Source of the DNA: Chitinophaga pinensis
GTDB lineage: Bacteria; Bacteroidota; Bacteroidia; Chitinophagales; Chitinophagaceae
NCBI GenBank assembly: GCA_943327275.2
Contig: CALPWM020000004.1
Span: 1 to 33,984 of the forward strand
Reading direction: 5' to 3'
DNA: 33,984 nt
Shown here: piece after piece, positions 5,551 to 19,012 of the stretch
How positions within the stretch are numbered: the first letter of the stretch is position 1
How the letters are laid out: each line of letters begins with the position of its first letter
Notes under the pieces: generated by a model
What the model was told of the DNA's origin: nothing
Database searches by the model: none
Seen by the model: the letters and a program-made list of their open reading frames with translations, nothing else
Program-made: the position numbers and the translations under genes

Positions 5551-8500
5551 TTAGAAAGTTAAGTTTAGTCCGAAAATGATTGACCTGGCCTTGGGATAGC
5601 TAAGCCCATCAATCCCATAAGAAGATACACCATTGATGGTTCTATCGGTGTTTACTTCAGGATCGTATCCATTGTACTTTGTGATCACAAAAAGATTTTG
5701 ACCGGTTACGGAAAGTCGAAGTCCGGAAATCCATTTGCCCATTGCTCCACCGCGGGTATCAAAATTATACCCAAGGGCCATATTGTTCAAACGCAAATAT
5801 GCTCCGTCTTTGAGGTACCTCGAACTGATGGGAGCTGAGTTGTTGATAGACTCCTTTGGAGACCCAACAGCCTCAGGGGTCGTGTTCACACTCTTCGATA
5901 AGCGCAATTTATAGAAATAGGCATTTGCTGTATTGTCGTAAATCTTATTTCCTGAAACACCATTGAAATTGGCAACAAAATCAAATCCTTTGTAGGAGAA
6001 GTTTGCAAAGAATGCATAGATTACTTTAGGAAGTGCAGTGCCCAATGCAAGCCTGTCCTTGTCTCCGCTGATGCCATCGCCATCAATGTCACGGAAGGTA
6101 CTAATGCCATTGGCGTCTAGACCTGTCCATTCCCTAAGAAAGAAAGTACCAATAGGCTGTCCATTGATATAGCCGTTCACAGTGGCAGAGGTCAAACCGG
6201 GTCCTGATGCAGAACCGGATTGAATTACCGAGTAAGGAGAATTTTCAACAAGATTGCTCAGGAAAGCACCATTACCACCAATCGTATATTTTATTCCTGA
6301 TTTGGTCTTGTTCTTATAAGCAAGATCAATTTCCAGACCTGAATTGGTAATGGTCATGTCTTTCACATTGGTCCAGAAAGTCCCTGCAGGCTGAACAGGG
6401 TCTGCTGGAATCACTTCAAGCAGAATGTTGTTGGACAATTTCTTGAAATAATCGATTGATCCTGTAAGTGCGCCTTTCAGCAAGCCAAAGTCCAAGCCCA
6501 CATTGGTTTGGGTAGACACCTCCCATTGGATATCAGGATTGGCCAACCTTGAATAGGTAATCCCTGCAGGATAAGGACCTGTTGCAGCAAGCGGATAACT
6601 GGTGGTACCAGAAACGGCTGATGTGAAAAGTGGTTGGGTGATTTTGGAAGGAATTTCCTGGTTACCCGTTTGTCCCCATCCAGCCCGGAGCTTCAGGTTG
6701 CTGAAGGGTGAGCTTTGCATAAATTCTTCTTCACTGATTCTCCATCCAAGAGAGAAGGATGGGAAATAACCGTATTTGTTGTTGTCCCCAAATTTAGAGG
6801 AACCATCCATCCTGAAATTGGCAGTAGCAAGATATTTGTCTTTGTAGGAATAGTTAACGCGAGAGAAGAAAGACTGCAATTCATTCAATACTGCAAAACC
6901 ATTGGGCCTGTTGTTCGCCAATGTAAGCTCCTGTCCAATGCCTGGATTGTACAATGGCTCAACCGGACCAACAGGAGGGCGGTTGATGCTCCATCCCCTG
7001 CCTTGTACATAAATCTCCTGGTAGGAATGTCCACCCAATGCAGAGAAATTATGGTCCTTGATATTAAAGTTATAGGTCAGGTAGTTTTCAATCAGGGTAT
7101 TCCTGTTGATGGTATTGTATGTTTCAAACCTTCCATCCCTTTGAGGCAGTACGTTGGCTAGAGACTGAACATCTCTGGTGGCGGTAGAATTATCTACCCC
7201 AAGGTTGAGTTTGTACGTAAGGCCGTCAATTATTTTAATGGATGGTGAAATGCTTCCAATGACCCTGTTGATGGTTGTTACATCCTTGTCCAGCTTAAAT
7301 GTGAGCAATGGGTTATTGAACAGCTGGAATGCTGCAATATTGCCCTGTGCATCATATGCTGAATATGTAGGGTTGTTGCTGAGGGCATCGCCAATGACTC
7401 CACCGATGTTGGGGCGCTGTTGTTTGGTGTTGTTTGCGCTGAGGTTTACATCTACAATCAGCCTGTCGTTCAGGAATTTCTGCGTAGCATTAAACCTCCC
7501 TGAATACCTTTTCAGGTCATTGGTTTTGATGATACCCTCCTGGTTTTGCAAACCAAAAGAGGCAAAATAAGTAAGCTTTTCAGCACCACCACTCATGGTA
7601 AGGTTGTGGTTCTGTGTAAGCGCCGTTCTGGTAATTTCCTTTTGCCAGTCGGTATTTCCGCCCTTATCATCAAGGATACCGCCTACTTCAACAACTTTTT
7701 TCCTGAATTCAGCTGCACTATAAACAGGGAGTGCTCTTGTCAGTTCCGATACGCCCACGCTGCTGTTGTAATTCATCACAGATGTACCAGACTTTCCTTT
7801 TTTTGTAGTGATAAGGATTACGCCGTTTGCACCACGTGCTCCATAGATGGCAGTGGCAGATGCGTCTTTCAAGACGTCCATCGTTTCAATATCTGCAGGG
7901 TTGATAAAGTTCAATGGATCGCCTCCACCTGTGCTGGAATTGTCCAACGGAAGTCCGTCAACCACAAAGAGCGGCGTACTTCCTGTACGCACACCACCAG
8001 GGCCCCTGATGCTGATACCCTGGGCAGCACCCGGTTCACCACTTGCAGAAGTTACATTGACGCCGGCTACCTTACCCTGCAATAATTGTTGCGGAGCATT
8101 GATGATACCTTTATTAAACTCTTCAGCACCGACACTTTTTACAGCACCGGTTACATCGCGCTTGCGCTGTGTTCCATAACCAACCACCACTACCTGAGCA
8201 AGGTCTGCAGAAGCTGATTGTAAAGAAAAATTTACAGACGATCTGTCGCCCACAACAATTTCCTGTGAAACGTATCCTACAAAGGATACAACCAAAACAG
8301 CATTGTCGCCGGGGACTGAAATAGAAAAGCCTCCTTGCGCATCTGTCAGTGCACTGGTTTTGGTTCCTTTAACAGCCAGACTTGCCCCGGAAAGCGGTAA
8401 GCCGGTTCCTGCATCAGTCACCTGTCCTTTGATGATACGGTCAAATGCGTTTGAGTAACTTAGTTTCTCCGATGCCATCACCGAATGTGGTGTAGCCAAG

Positions 8501-8574
8501 AGAAAAATAGCTCCCATCAATACAATGCATGATAGCAGTCGAAAACATGCATGAAGCGAAATGCAATTTCTCAT
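5551..8574 (-). CDS. SusC/RagA family TonB-linked outer membrane protein
   Basis: N-terminal carboxypeptidase-like domain (GQVTDAGTGLPLSGASLAVKGT), TonB box/plug VVVVGYGTQRKRDVTGAV, GARGANGVILITTKKGK, C-terminal KARSIIFGLNLTF. Confidence 0.95.
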   Translation of the reverse strand: MRNCISLHACFRLLSCIVLMGAIFLLATPHSVMASEKLSYSNAFDRIIKGQVTDAGTGLPLSGASLAVKGTKTSALTDAQGGFSISVPGDNAVLVVSFVGYVSQEIVVGDRSSVNFSLQSASADLAQVVVVGYGTQRKRDVTGAVKSVGAEEFNKGIINAPQQLLQGKVAGVNVTSASGEPGAAQGISIRGPGGVRTGSTPLFVVDGLPLDNSSTGGGDPLNFINPADIETMDVLKDASATAIYGARGANGVILITTKKGKSGTSVMNYNSSVGVSELTRALPVYSAAEFRKKVVEVGGILDDKGGNTDWQKEITRTALTQNHNLTMSGGAEKLTYFASFGLQNQEGIIKTNDLKRYSGRFNATQKFLNDRLIVDVNLSANNTKQQRPNIGGVIGDALSNNPTYSAYDAQGNIAAFQLFNNPLLTFKLDKDVTTINRVIGSISPSIKIIDGLTYKLNLGVDNSTATRDVQSLANVLPQRDGRFETYNTINRNTLIENYLTYNFNIKDHNFSALGGHSYQEIYVQGRGWSINRPPVGPVEPLYNPGIGQELTLANNRPNGFAVLNELQSFFSRVNYSYKDKYLATANFRMDGSSKFGDNNKYGYFPSFSLGWRISEEEFMQSSPFSNLKLRAGWGQTGNQEIPSKITQPLFTSAVSGTTSYPLAATGPYPAGITYSRLANPDIQWEVSTQTNVGLDFGLLKGALTGSIDYFKKLSNNILLEVIPADPVQPAGTFWTNVKDMTITNSGLEIDLAYKNKTKSGIKYTIGGNGAFLSNLVENSPYSVIQSGSASGPGLTSATVNGYINGQPIGTFFLREWTGLDANGISTFRDIDGDGISGDKDRLALGTALPKVIYAFFANFSYKGFDFVANFNGVSGNKIYDNTANAYFYKLRLSKSVNTTPEAVGSPKESINNSAPISSRYLKDGAYLRLNNMALGYNFDTRGGAMGKWISGLRLSVTGQNLFVITKYNGYDPEVNTDRTINGVSSYGIDGLSYPKARSIIFGLNLTF

Positions 8575-8667
8575 TTTTTTAATTTTAACTTGAAAATATT
8601 TAGAATGGCAAAGGTTAATTTCGGGTATTAGCCCCCTATTAACCCAATACTAAATTATGGTTAATAT

Positions 8668-8698
8668 TTGAAAAAAGTTTGGGCATGGGATACCTTTA
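8668..8698 (+). promoter_or_regulatory. Candidate Bacteroidota sigma-A-type promoter for the SIMPL gene
   Basis: TTG (8668-8670), 20-nt spacer, TAccTTTa (8691-8698); one mismatch to TAnnTTTG; 54 nt before the ATG at 8753. Confidence 0.45.
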
Positions 8699-8752
8699 TG
8701 GAAAGGTCGGATTTGAGCATCCATAAAGATGATAAACCATAAATAATACCAT

Positions 8753-9454
8753 ATGAAAAAATTGATTTTATGCACCTTAATGGGTTTGTTGACCCTTAGT
8801 CTTTCAGCCCAAATGAAGACCTTTTTGGATGTCCCTTATATTGAAGTATACGGAAGTGCAGACACCCTGATTACTCCCAATGAAATCTATATCAGCATCG
8901 TGATTGCCGAGGCGGATGTTAAAAACAAGATCTCTTTGGAAGATCAGGAACGAAAAATGGTAGCTGGCCTAAAATCCCTTGGGATCAATACAGAAAAAGA
9001 ACTGACCACTTCAGACATGCAAAGCAATTTCAAGTATTATGTGCTGAAGCAGAAGGATGTGATGAAGACAAAGTCATACACCCTAAAGGTGGGAGACGCT
9101 GTTTTGGCTACCCGCGTATTCATGAAACTGGAGGAACTGGGCATTGCCAATGCCAACCTGGATCGGGTGGGGCATTCAGATATGGTCAAGCTGAAAAACA
9201 ACTGCAGAACCAATGCCATGAAAAATGCCTACGACAAGGCCAAGGCATTGACAAGCCCAATTGGTGCTTCAGTGGGCGCACCATTGCATATTGCAGATTT
9301 CAGCAATGATGGGGATGGCGCAACGCAACATGCCTTGCAAACTCGGATCAGGGGCATGTCTACACTCAATGAAGTCAAAGAAGAGTTGCCGCAAATAGAC
9401 TTTGAAAAAATCAGGATCAGCATGAATGTGAGCGTCAAATTCATGCTGAAATAG
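8753..9454 (+). CDS. SIMPL (DUF541) domain-containing periplasmic protein
   Basis: Signal peptide; PYIEVYGSADTLITPNEIYISIVI and ALTSPIGASVGAPLHIADFSND resemble SIMPL domain proteins. Confidence 0.8.
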   Translation: MKKLILCTLMGLLTLSLSAQMKTFLDVPYIEVYGSADTLITPNEIYISIVIAEADVKNKISLEDQERKMVAGLKSLGINTEKELTTSDMQSNFKYYVLKQKDVMKTKSYTLKVGDAVLATRVFMKLEELGIANANLDRVGHSDMVKLKNNCRTNAMKNAYDKAKALTSPIGASVGAPLHIADFSNDGDGATQHALQTRIRGMSTLNEVKEELPQIDFEKIRISMNVSVKFMLK

Positions 9455-9476
9455 CATTTTATTTGCCTTTCTGCCG

Positions 9477-9484
9477 TATATTTG
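9477..9484 (+). promoter_or_regulatory. -7 element TATATTTG for tRNA-Leu
   Basis: Exact TAnnTTTG match ending 9 nt before the tRNA 5' end; no clear -33 TTG at standard spacing. Confidence 0.5.
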
Positions 9485-9493
9485 TCCTCCACT

Positions 9494-9577
9494 GCCCAGG
9501 TGGCGAAATTGGTAGACGCACTGTGTTCAGGTCGCAGCGTTCGCAAGGATGTGCTGGTTCGAATCCAGTCCTGGGCA
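9494..9577 (+). tRNA. tRNA-Leu, anticodon CAG (9528-9530)
   Basis: Acceptor stem GCCCAGG/CCTGGGC, long variable arm, anticodon stem CTGTG/CGCAG with loop TTCAGGT, T-loop GGTTCGAATCC; CCA not encoded. Confidence 0.95.
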
Positions 9578-9582
9578 CGAAT

Positions 9583-9692: not shown

Positions 9693-9756
9693 GTTAGTAA
9701 GCCCCCCCGCAGGACAATTGGATCACCGCAGGTAATCCAGTCCTGGACACAAACGG

Positions 9757-10464
9757 CTAAAACAAATCCCTACCATCGGTTACAAGATGCAGGCCATTGA
9801 ACTTCCCTTTGTCAAAGTCAATGCGATTGGCTTTTACTGCCACAGGAAATCTGCCAGTCCCGGCAACCATCTTCAAAGTATTGTTTTTGGTGGAAGAAAA
9901 CTCGATCTTATTGCTGGCGGACTTCTTCAGTGCATTGATGATCTTGCTGTTGATTTTACTGTCTGTTTCCATTTCTGCCACCAGTTGTTCAGCAGTTACC
10001 AAGCCTGTTATCACGAGCAGGTTGTTGCGATTGGCATTGCGCAGCAACACTGGGTTAGGGTGAAGAAAATCTGCATCGCTGAGAAAGTCTGTCAGGCTTC
10101 CCGTTGGCACCACTTCTGTGATGGCGTTTCTATAAGAGATGCTTAGTTTTTTACCGCCGCTGATTGCTGCACTGAAATCAATGGGAGGTATGCCGACGGA
10201 TTGCATCCATTCCTGCACCATGGTGATTCCAATTTGGAAAGCATACTCGTTCTTCTCTGTATCCTTGATGTCGAGGCCGGGATCTTTGGTGATGCGCAGC
10301 TTTTTGTTGCTGTTGAATGCATGCAGGATATTGGCGTAATAAAGTTCTGGCTGGTTGAAACCCTCTTTCAGCCATAGCTGCAGGGGTTTTTGATTGCGGA
10401 CAGGACCGTCGATAAGATCGTAGCCCGCTTCACGGAGGTGTTGCTGCAGGGAGGTGGTTGCCAT
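9757..10464 (-). CDS. Gasdermin-like protein (bacterial gasdermin family candidate)
   Basis: 235 aa. N-terminal HLREAGYDLIDGPVRNQKPLQLWLKEG matches the bacterial gasdermin 'GY.lv.lP...kPLqll' pattern as recalled; followed by GGKKLSISYRNAITEVVPTGSLTDFLSDAD, NNLLVITGLV and GTGRFPVAVKANRIDFDKG in the expected order. Alignment done from memory. Confidence 0.65.
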   Translation of the reverse strand: MATTSLQQHLREAGYDLIDGPVRNQKPLQLWLKEGFNQPELYYANILHAFNSNKKLRITKDPGLDIKDTEKNEYAFQIGITMVQEWMQSVGIPPIDFSAAISGGKKLSISYRNAITEVVPTGSLTDFLSDADFLHPNPVLLRNANRNNLLVITGLVTAEQLVAEMETDSKINSKIINALKKSASNKIEFSSTKNNTLKMVAGTGRFPVAVKANRIDFDKGKFNGLHLVTDGRDLF

Positions 10465-10614
10465 GGTTGTAGCGATAAAATGGTGTCTATAAATATAACA
10501 ATATTTAGAAAGAGAAAAGCTGATGTACTTGTATCATCACAATCCTCCATTTGATCAAATTCCTTGTACAACGAAATCAGCATTTGAATTGAGTGAAGAA
10601 AAATCAGGCAAAAA

Positions 10615-10642
10615 AAAGGTGGTCCGTTTCTGGACCACCTTT
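10615..10642 (-). terminator. Rho-independent terminator downstream of katG
   Basis: 11-bp perfect stem AAAGGTGGTCC/GGACCACCTTT with 6-nt loop, with T-run on the minus strand. Confidence 0.8.
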
Positions 10643-10663
10643 GCAATATCAACAGTATTATTT

Positions 10664-12926
<2,263 letters not shown>

Positions 12927-13111
12927 TCCTTGGTAACTTTATAAAAGCGGAAATGTTCGGATTTTTTACAAAAAAATGATAATTCCTGGGCGAGGCTCAG
13001 ATACCGAAAGCACATAACATTGATAATATCAAATGATACTATCATGAAGCCTCCCCATGATATCAGTGCTGAAATTCTCGTTTAAATAGCCCTCAGCGTA
13101 AACATCTATCC

Positions 13112-15968: not shown

Positions 15969-17450
15969 TTATTGGGATTCCAACGAAGCCAAATACCGAT
16001 CTGCATTGTCCAAATGCAATTGCCTTTTTTGCTCCGGCATTTTGTCAAAGGTTTTGACAAGCATGCCCAGCCTTGGATTCTGTAAAAAGAAATCACGGTG
16101 AACATGCATAAAACGCCAAAACAATGCATCCCAAACAGCCTGCCATTCACCCTTGGGATAGTCACTCATTTTCATGAGGTAATTGCTGCCACTGATATAG
16201 GGTTTTGTTGACATCAAACCGCCATCGGCAAACTGGCTCATACCATACACGTTGGGTACCATCACCCAGTCATATGCATCAATGAACATTTCCATGAACC
16301 AGCGATAGACCTCGTTAGGATCAAATTCGCAGAGCAACATAAAATTACCGAGCACCATCAGTCTTTCAATGTGATGACAATAGCCTGTCTCCAAAATCTT
16401 TTTAATGGTGATGTCGATGGGCTCAATACCAGTAGTGCCCTTCCAAAACGAAGCAGGAATTTTTCGGGTAAAACCCCAGTAGTTGCGGGTCCTTTCTACG
16501 TTGCCCTTGAGTTCATATACAGCACGAATGAACTCTCTCCAACCAAGGATCTGACGGATGAATCCCTCCAAAGAATTGATGGGAATATCATTTGCGCTTG
16601 CATAGGTCAAAGCCTGGTCAATGACATATGCAGGGGTCAACAAACCAACATTGAGCATGGGCGTCAACACCCCATGGTGAAGAAATATTTCTTTTGCAAC
16701 AATGGCATCCTCATAGGCCCCAAATTCAGCAAACCGCTTGGCGAAAAATTCCTTCAGCCATTGTTTGCTGTCTGCAAAATTGGTTGGATAAATGAATTGA
16801 GTATTGATGCTTCCATAATTGTTTGGAAAATATTGTCTCACATATTGAACAGCCTCTTCGTACAATTCATCCGATTCCAGGAATTGTAGTTTTGGAGGCG
16901 TTTTTCCTTTGGGATATTTCAAACGGTTTTCGTCATCAAATGTCCACTTCCCACCAGTAGGGATTTTATCCGTATCCATCAAAATATTTCTTTGCTGGCG
17001 CTGGTATTTGTAAAAATCAGTCTGGAACATTCTTTTCCTGCCGGAAAAATATTGTGCATTTTCTTCAGCAGTCATCAAAAAAAGCGGAGAAGCATTTTTA
17101 TGGGCATTTAAACCGTGCTTATCGCAGGATTGTTTAATGCGCTTTTCAAGCCATTGATCTGTTGTATCAATGTACTCAAATGAATCAATGCCAGTTGATT
17201 TGATATGGGCAACCAGTTTCCTTATATCAGACAAATCATTGAAAGCATCGATGTACTCAACATGTATATTGAGAGAAGCAAGGTGGCTTTGATAGGCCTT
17301 CATGCTGGCGCGATGAAACAGAATTTTCTGTTGATGAAAATTATATTGTTTGAAATAAAGCCATTCTTCAACAAGGTAAATGGTATCACATTTTTCGAGG
17401 AGGGGATTTTGCTCAAAAAGTTGATGCGGAAAAAGAATGCCTATCCTCAT
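15969..17450 (-). CDS. Cryptochrome/photolyase family protein, FeS-BCP/PhrB-like (COG3046 type), lacking the canonical cluster cysteines
   Basis: MRIGILFPHQLFEQNPLL N-terminus; HHIERLMVLGNFMLLCEFDPNEVYRWFMEMFIDAYDWVMVPNVYGMSQFADGGLMSTKPYISGSNYLMKMSDYPKGEW. Confidence 0.9.
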   Translation of the reverse strand: MRIGILFPHQLFEQNPLLEKCDTIYLVEEWLYFKQYNFHQQKILFHRASMKAYQSHLASLNIHVEYIDAFNDLSDIRKLVAHIKSTGIDSFEYIDTTDQWLEKRIKQSCDKHGLNAHKNASPLFLMTAEENAQYFSGRKRMFQTDFYKYQRQQRNILMDTDKIPTGGKWTFDDENRLKYPKGKTPPKLQFLESDELYEEAVQYVRQYFPNNYGSINTQFIYPTNFADSKQWLKEFFAKRFAEFGAYEDAIVAKEIFLHHGVLTPMLNVGLLTPAYVIDQALTYASANDIPINSLEGFIRQILGWREFIRAVYELKGNVERTRNYWGFTRKIPASFWKGTTGIEPIDITIKKILETGYCHHIERLMVLGNFMLLCEFDPNEVYRWFMEMFIDAYDWVMVPNVYGMSQFADGGLMSTKPYISGSNYLMKMSDYPKGEWQAVWDALFWRFMHVHRDFFLQNPRLGMLVKTFDKMPEQKRQLHLDNADRYLASLESQ

Positions 17451-17509
17451 GTTCGATTGAATTGTTGTTTATGCAACAGATAGGAATACAAATAGTTTCC
17501 GGTGGATGG

Positions 17510-19012
17510 TTATTTTGTTTTTCGGGTTGAAGTCCTTCTGCCTGAAGTATTGACGTGCTTGCTTAAAATCCTGCTGCCTTCTGTTTTAACGGCAGTTGTT
17601 TTTTTGAAACCCCAGACCTGATCACTGGCTGTTTTGCGTGTGGCCTCAATGTCTACAATGGGGTTGGGATAGTCCTTGCCAATAATCACCTGATAAAAAT
17701 CCTGTTCCATTGCACTCATTTTCCAGGGCTCGTGTATCAGCGCTGCAGGAACATTTTTTAATTCGGGCATCCATTGCTTGATGAATACACCCTCCGAATC
17801 ATGATCTTCTGAATTTTTGAGGGGGTTATAGATCCGAATGGTATTGATGCCTGTAACACCAGACTGCATTTGCAATTGAGGATAGTGGATGCCAGGTTCG
17901 TAATCCAAAAACTGTCTCGCCAAAAAATGAAGGTCGCGCCAGTCTTGCCAGAGATTGAAGACAAAAAAAGAAACCACCATGGCCCTCATCCTGAAATTGA
18001 TATAGCCTGTTTCTACCAAACAACGCATGCAGGCATCCACAATCGGCACTCCGGTTTTGCCTTCCTGCCAGGCCTTGATATAGTCTTCGTTCCTGGGTTT
18101 TACAATGGTATCGTAAGCGGAGTTGATGTTGTAAAATTCCATGCGGCATTCATCTTCAAATTTTTGCATGAAATGACAATGCCAATGCAAGCGCGAAATA
18201 AAATTTGAAAGCGCCCTTTTGTTGCTGGCCAGCGCATAGTGCTGAGCAGTATGCTGAAAGACCATACGCATGCTGATGTTGCCATAACTGAGGTAAGGCG
18301 AAATCCTGCTGCATCCTTTCCGGCTCAATGCCGGCTTGGAAATGTATTTTGAATAGTTGACATAACGTTCCGATAAAAAACTCTTCAGGTATTTCCAGGC
18401 AAAGGTTTCACCACCGTGTTGGAAAGAGGGATGCGGTGTTCGGATGGCAGGATCAAGCTCAGGCCCCTTGATATTATCATAGATTGCATCATCCAACAAA
18501 ATGGTCTTTAGGTTTTGTAAGTCTAATGGTTGTGCTGCCTGCAGCATGGTCTCTTTCCAGCGCTGTTGCCATTCTTTTCTGGACTTCAGTTTTCTGACAA
18601 CACCATTGTGACGGGATTCTTTCCAGACAATATTGTTGATGGAGCAATATTCCTTCACAGCAAGATCCCTGTCGTAGGTAATTTTATTCCCAATTTCCTG
18701 GTGAGAAAAAATCGCCTTGATTGTATACTCTTGATTCAATGCTTGAAAAACAGGAACCACCTCTTGGTGAAAAATATGGATGCGCGCATGGATGCCATCC
18801 AGTTTGGATTGCATGTCTTGCAAGGATTGGTAGACAAAACGCCAATGACGCGTATCACTGTCATCATAGTTCATTACCGATGGCTCAAAACAATAGACCA
18901 GCAAAATGGGTAATCCATTCGCTTGTGCCAAGGTAAGCGGCTCGTGGTCCGTGAGCCGCAAATCACGCTTGAACCAAACGATGGCAATGTCTTGTTTTTC
19001 CGCTTTGTCCAT
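17510..19012 (-). CDS. Cryptochrome/deoxyribodipyrimidine photolyase family protein (two-domain)
   Basis: [22 protein letters not shown]-terminus; [64 protein letters not shown]; basic C-terminal tail. Confidence 0.93.

Follow-up and report, generated by a model that had tools for sequence, protein, structure and literature searches.

The window, a stretch of 33,984 nucleotides from Chitinophaga pinensis, harbors at positions 9757-10464 (-) an open reading frame (ORF) that runs from ATG to stop and encodes a 235-aa protein, which by residue count has no cysteine and is placed in the gasdermin family by NCBIfam NF051890, PADLOC bGSDM and a PDB profile match to 8sl0/7n51. Gasdermins are proteins that punch holes into membranes and kill cells. 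The ORF is genuine and not a chance reading frame, as pairwise dN/dS values of 0.04-0.11 among close homologues mark it as a maintained coding gene and its profile matches are strong (E 7.6e-33 for NF051890 and 2.3e-21 for PADLOC bGSDM). Every motif quoted for a 235-aa protein in an earlier, sequence-only reading of this DNA is present in it. Alignments of 15 and 26 sequences delineate a conserved N-terminal block at residues 10-31 (LREAGYDLIDGPVRNQKPLQLW; 10372-10437, -), in which positions are invariant or nearly so and within or upstream of which no cysteine occurs, and a last conserved core block at residues 206-217 (FPVAVKANRIDF; 9814-9849, -), where the low-confidence predicted model has strands at 204-212 and 214-217. 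The core is followed by a short C-terminal tail, residues 218-235 (9760-9813, -), which is conserved in 26/26 homologues.

The gene lies between a tRNA-Leu(CAG) gene (9494-9578, +), the conserved left border of a variable slot, and katG (peroxidase; 10664-12880, -). A repeat of the tRNA-Leu 3'-end is found beside the gasdermin slot (9734-9750, +), 172 bases downstream of the copy at 9562-9578, with which it has 16/17 bases in common, and resembles an att trace. After katG, a consensus scan places a terminator-like hairpin with an 11-pair stem and a T run (10615-10642, -), a call that rests on position and stem length, the scan having found 6 such hairpins versus 4.1 in shuffled sequences; it suggests that the gasdermin gene is not transcribed from the katG transcript. 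The two neighbours named in the sequence-only reading, tRNA-Leu and katG, are both present here; however, among the loci read a tRNA adjoins the gasdermin gene in the window genome only, with none in 15 other gasdermin loci, and katG is a neighbour in only some loci. A redox link to katG was rejected, given the lack of cysteine, the katG adjacency in some genomes only and the terminator-like hairpin between the genes. Elsewhere in the window, tandem photolyase-family genes encode a deoxyribodipyrimidine photolyase-related protein and a DNA photolyase (15969-19012, -).

Family membership and predicted fold

At 114 bits, the match to NF051890 (prok_gasdermin) exceeds the curated cut-off of 100 bits. 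A single-sequence search of the PDB returned the bacterial gasdermins 8sl0 and 7n51 as best matches (E ~0.003), and with a 15-sequence profile the 8sl0/7n51 chains were matched at 7e-10 and 1e-9. No gasdermin match to the window protein was obtained in a Pfam search; the matches to RDV-p3 and AdeT1_2, which are weak and under the cut-offs, and those to Shiga toxin A-chains, which extend over ~60 residues at E-values of 0.13-0.48 and are also under the cut-offs, were discarded as chance.

AlphaFold models, built on seven sequences for the window protein and for a Flavobacterium homologue that is 48% identical to it (L024), are of low confidence (mean pLDDT of 49.6 and 51.6, respectively), and in both of them confidence is lowest in the tail. 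The structure search proposed in the sequence-only reading points to bacterial gasdermins even so, with Runella gasdermin 7n52 as the top PDB match of the window model (E 1.5e-3) and bacterial gasdermins occupying PDB ranks 1-6 for the low-confidence L024 model (probability 0.98-1.00), whereas the Trichoplax gasdermin, at rank 7, was not significant. A viral structure search returned nothing significant.

From the agreement of NF051890, PADLOC bGSDM, the PDB profile and the homologue fold match, the window protein can be firmly assigned to the bacterial gasdermins, which upholds the earlier identification as gasdermin-like, while its structural detail is not firm. NCBIfam already has a name for the family, which hence is not a new one; the window protein and its clade pass the curated cut-off and belong to it in the same way, yet the family name does not cover the solo, cysteine-free and short-tailed traits of this clade.

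Distribution and shared traits of the clade

Two groups of Bacteroidota yielded 26 distinct relatives in genome searches, the named homologues coming from Chitinophagaceae metagenome bins and Flavobacterium isolates, and in the tree the Chitinophagaceae group is separate from the flavobacterial one. The gasdermin is found in 10/42 genomes of the window's genus and, over the cut-off, in 13/200 genomes from the genus to which the Flavobacterium homologue belongs and 3/399 genomes of a phylum sample, with many of the carrier genomes being incomplete bins. The proteins have 233 (17 of the 26), 234 (one) or 235 aa (eight), and not one of their 6075 residues is a cysteine, so that the absence stated earlier for the window protein is confirmed and extended to 26/26 homologues. 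Cysteine makes up 0.76% of the window neighbours, which corresponds to a 17% chance of finding none in one such protein, hence the window protein would not stand out by itself and the notable feature is that cysteine is missing throughout the clade, bearing in mind that the 26 sequences are related and therefore not independent. As they recur in all 26 homologues, spread over two groups of Bacteroidota, the length, the lack of cysteine, the short tail and the lack of a recognisable linked protease are, by sequence comparison, marks of a clade and not a quirk of the window contig.

The binned genome G006 carries two diverged gasdermins, which represent the two subtypes of the clade, lie in separate places (L011 6422-7126 and L019 14017-14721) and are 67-91% identical to the window protein; the other carriers, some of which are incomplete genomes, have one gasdermin match each. 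Carriage by phages or plasmids was rejected, as no match to the window gasdermin was present in the phages, plasmids and viral contigs searched.

A variable slot

In the close relative G446, the same flanks are found (90-100% identity over window 6936-9578 and 93% over 10612-13078), and ~0.7 kb of unrelated DNA replaces the gasdermin interval between them. A recombinase-like protein (L047; Pfam Recombinase at E 0.005, under the cut-off) adjoins the same tRNA in G004, and the second gasdermin subtype flanks katG on its opposite side in G006 and, in G446, adjoins the same Gfo/Idh gene. Judged from the gasdermin-free site, the recombinase-like gene, the tRNA repeat and the positions of the second subtype, the gasdermin gene behaves like a one-gene accessory insert in a variable tRNA-Leu/katG slot, and its patchy presence together with the G446 site fits accessory cargo.

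Neighbouring genes and proteases

Bacterial gasdermins are understood as cleavage-activated and protease-paired, although a linked protease is typical and not universal. Family searches detected no peptidase family beside the gasdermin gene in any locus read; the lack of an adjacent protease described for the window thus applies to recognisable proteases both there and in the other loci read, where the comparison of homologue neighbourhoods suggested earlier gave the same result. The neighbours across loci are mostly metabolic or without assigned function and include katG, SIMPL, Gfo/Idh oxidoreductase, Fic, HTH, amino-acid permease, PhoPQ-related, beta-helix, DUF4494, Mpo1-like, DUF3754, DUF2199, META, HSP20, RlmL, GH25, GH3 and GDSL-lipase genes; several are without a family match and could be unrecognised partners. 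No partner gene common to all gasdermin loci was found, and no defence island was recognised around them. Peptidase C14 (caspase-like) was undetected in 20 of the 25 genomes that carry the gasdermin, among them the full set of ten from the window's genus (G097 and G656, with identical coordinates, were counted once), and in the other five it is encoded on a different contig or >200 kb from the gasdermin. This genome-wide search was for Peptidase C14; general serine proteases are near-universal and so would not discriminate.

In many flavobacterial loci, a gene for an Mpo1-like lipid enzyme adjoins or is near the gasdermin gene (L024 8788-9258, with equivalents in L025, L072, L073 and L075-L079), which may be plain shared gene order. 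Separately, L032 6756-9017 (G120; also in L081) includes a predicted lipoprotein of 306 aa whose gasdermin match is weak (NF051890 E 4e-6, 27 bits and under the cut-off; PADLOC bGSDM 1.2e-4), directly downstream of an exported protein resembling papain-like cysteine proteases (PDB 3ois, E 4.8e-6), possibly an exported gasdermin-protease pair. The start of a 283-aa protein encoded within L082 1438-3579 (G164) resembles a signal peptide; this protein is 24% identical to the L032 lipoprotein, also matches gasdermins weakly (NF051890 E 4.7e-5; PADLOC bGSDM 1.2e-4) and precedes an exported protein bearing a HEYGH metalloprotease-like motif.

The C-terminal tail

In classical bacterial gasdermins, caspase-like or other proteases cut at a site ~20 residues before the C-terminus (PMC9612521), and it is the C-terminal peptide, together with palmitate on an N-terminal cysteine, that keeps the core inactive (PMC9612521, PMC10989679). 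The C-terminus of the present clade approximates the consensus FP[IV]A[VI]KA[SN]R[IL]D[FY]D..[RK]F..L.LVTD....F and typically ends in L-V-T-D-x4-F, with Asp230 and the last residue, Phe235, invariant in 26/26 homologues. Past the FPVAVKANRIDF block, 18 residues remain in the window protein, so that the very short tail of the sequence-only reading is borne out, but not its count of ~15. In the A1 profile, window residue 215 is aligned to residue 227 of both 7n51 (266 aa) and 8sl0 (237 aa), and past this end of the aligned core the window protein has 20 residues, the longer Vitiosangium chain (7n51) 39 and the shorter one (8sl0) 10. Relative to 7n51, the window protein would have hardly any space for a distinct cleavable loop; its tail, where the models are poor, may act as a latch or may form the last part of the core.

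Proposed mode of action and alternatives

The family, the clade-wide length, the lack of cysteine, the conserved tail, the lack of a linked recognisable protease, the purifying selection and the variable slot are read directly from the sequences. The explanation that we favor, at a probability of about 0.5, is a gasdermin that acts as a single-gene effector, has no dedicated protease linked to it and is restrained by its short tail or by dimerisation. As family membership leads one to expect, the cytoplasmic effector would oligomerise into pores in the inner membrane, and these would kill or arrest the cell; the family and the patchy distribution suggest that this is probably abortive defence against phage. 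The protein may be silenced by the short tail at its own C-terminus, with Phe235 packing where the inhibitory peptide and palmitate sit in classical gasdermins, or alternatively by non-covalent dimerisation through the membrane face. Release would proceed without a dedicated linked protease, via direct sensing of infection or of a membrane signal, a mode of control for which the missing parts are the sole argument. The more specific version, in which the clade is activated without proteolysis and the Phe-ending tail is a reversible latch directly responsive to infection or a membrane signal, is put forward tentatively.

A tail latch or non-covalent dimer ranks above an unlinked protease, which we regard as a doubtful but serious alternative. 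The protein would then be a conventional cleavage-activated gasdermin that is cut by a general serine or quality-control protease encoded elsewhere, and the 18-residue tail an unusually short inhibitory peptide, in keeping with the site at ~20 residues from the C-terminus at which known gasdermins are cut (PMC9612521), to which the conserved tail comes near in length. In its favor, the surveys covered linked peptidases and C14 and not the general proteases to which such an enzyme would belong. Against it, known systems are typically protease-linked and no linked peptidase family occurs in the loci read, C14 is undetected in most carriers, and compared to 7n51 there is little space for a cleavage loop.

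It is unlikely that the protein consists of the gasdermin domain only, is always competent for insertion and depends for its control on how strongly it is expressed or on a partner, be it an RCD-1-like pair or an antitoxin. A length of 233-235 aa is close to that of RCD-1-2 (244 aa) and TrichoGSDM (250 residues) (PMC12881547, PMC12547243), and G006 does carry two diverged copies; however, most genomes have a single copy, no partner gene is common to all loci, and the coexistence of the two variants in G006, a binned genome, makes it less likely that mixed variants kill automatically. Still less probable is a gasdermin fold that no longer forms lethal pores and serves elsewhere, for example in regulated export or in membrane repair: the patchy distribution and variable slot fit accessory effectors better than housekeeping genes, and core gasdermin features are kept at the profile level, against which stand the lack of recognised defence genes beside the gasdermin and a recurring non-defence neighbourhood that includes the Mpo1-like lipid enzyme in several Flavobacterium genomes. 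Finally, a chance resemblance of an unrelated family to gasdermins, as the Pfam result and the low confidence of the window protein's own model could be taken to mean, is very improbable, since two independent profile libraries, the PDB sequence profile and the fold search concur.

Comparison with known gasdermins

Most bacterial gasdermins have a palmitoylated N-terminal cysteine. The solved structures, from Vitiosangium (7n51/8sl0), Bradyrhizobium (7n50) and Runella (7n52), belong to the same family as the window protein by profile and match the low-confidence model of its homologue by fold, and like the window protein they are without a large C-terminal domain. In contrast to them, the window protein has neither the N-terminal palmitoylation cysteine (and no cysteine at all) nor a linked protease, and it continues for ~20 residues beyond the point where the aligned core stops, compared with 39 in 7n51.

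Cleavage-independent gasdermins have been described in eukaryotes, namely in Trichoplax, where control is by a disulfide dimer, and in Neurospora, where RCD-1 forms a two-variant pore (PMC12547243). TrichoGSDM and RCD-1-1/RCD-1-2 are of similar size (244-257 aa), have no C-terminal domain and do not need cleavage (PMC12547243, PMC12881547), although their fold similarity to the homologue model is weak. The disulfide switch of TrichoGSDM is inapplicable to the window clade, as 26/26 homologues are without cysteine. RCD-1 has an obligatory diverged partner, whereas the window clade usually has one copy per genome and two only in G006, and since most genomes are single-copy, the two-variant mode is unlikely as well.

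In a literature search with partial coverage of the primary gasdermin papers, such that an earlier account is possible, no account of solo or protease-less, cysteine-free and short-tailed bacterial gasdermins was found. The clade would offer a compact single-gene system in which to study how gasdermins are silenced, and the homologues in Flavobacterium isolates make testing feasible. A coherent clade without a linked protease, a palmitoylation site or a full inhibitory peptide would suggest that gasdermins are controlled by other means in bacteria too, as they are in fungi and Trichoplax.
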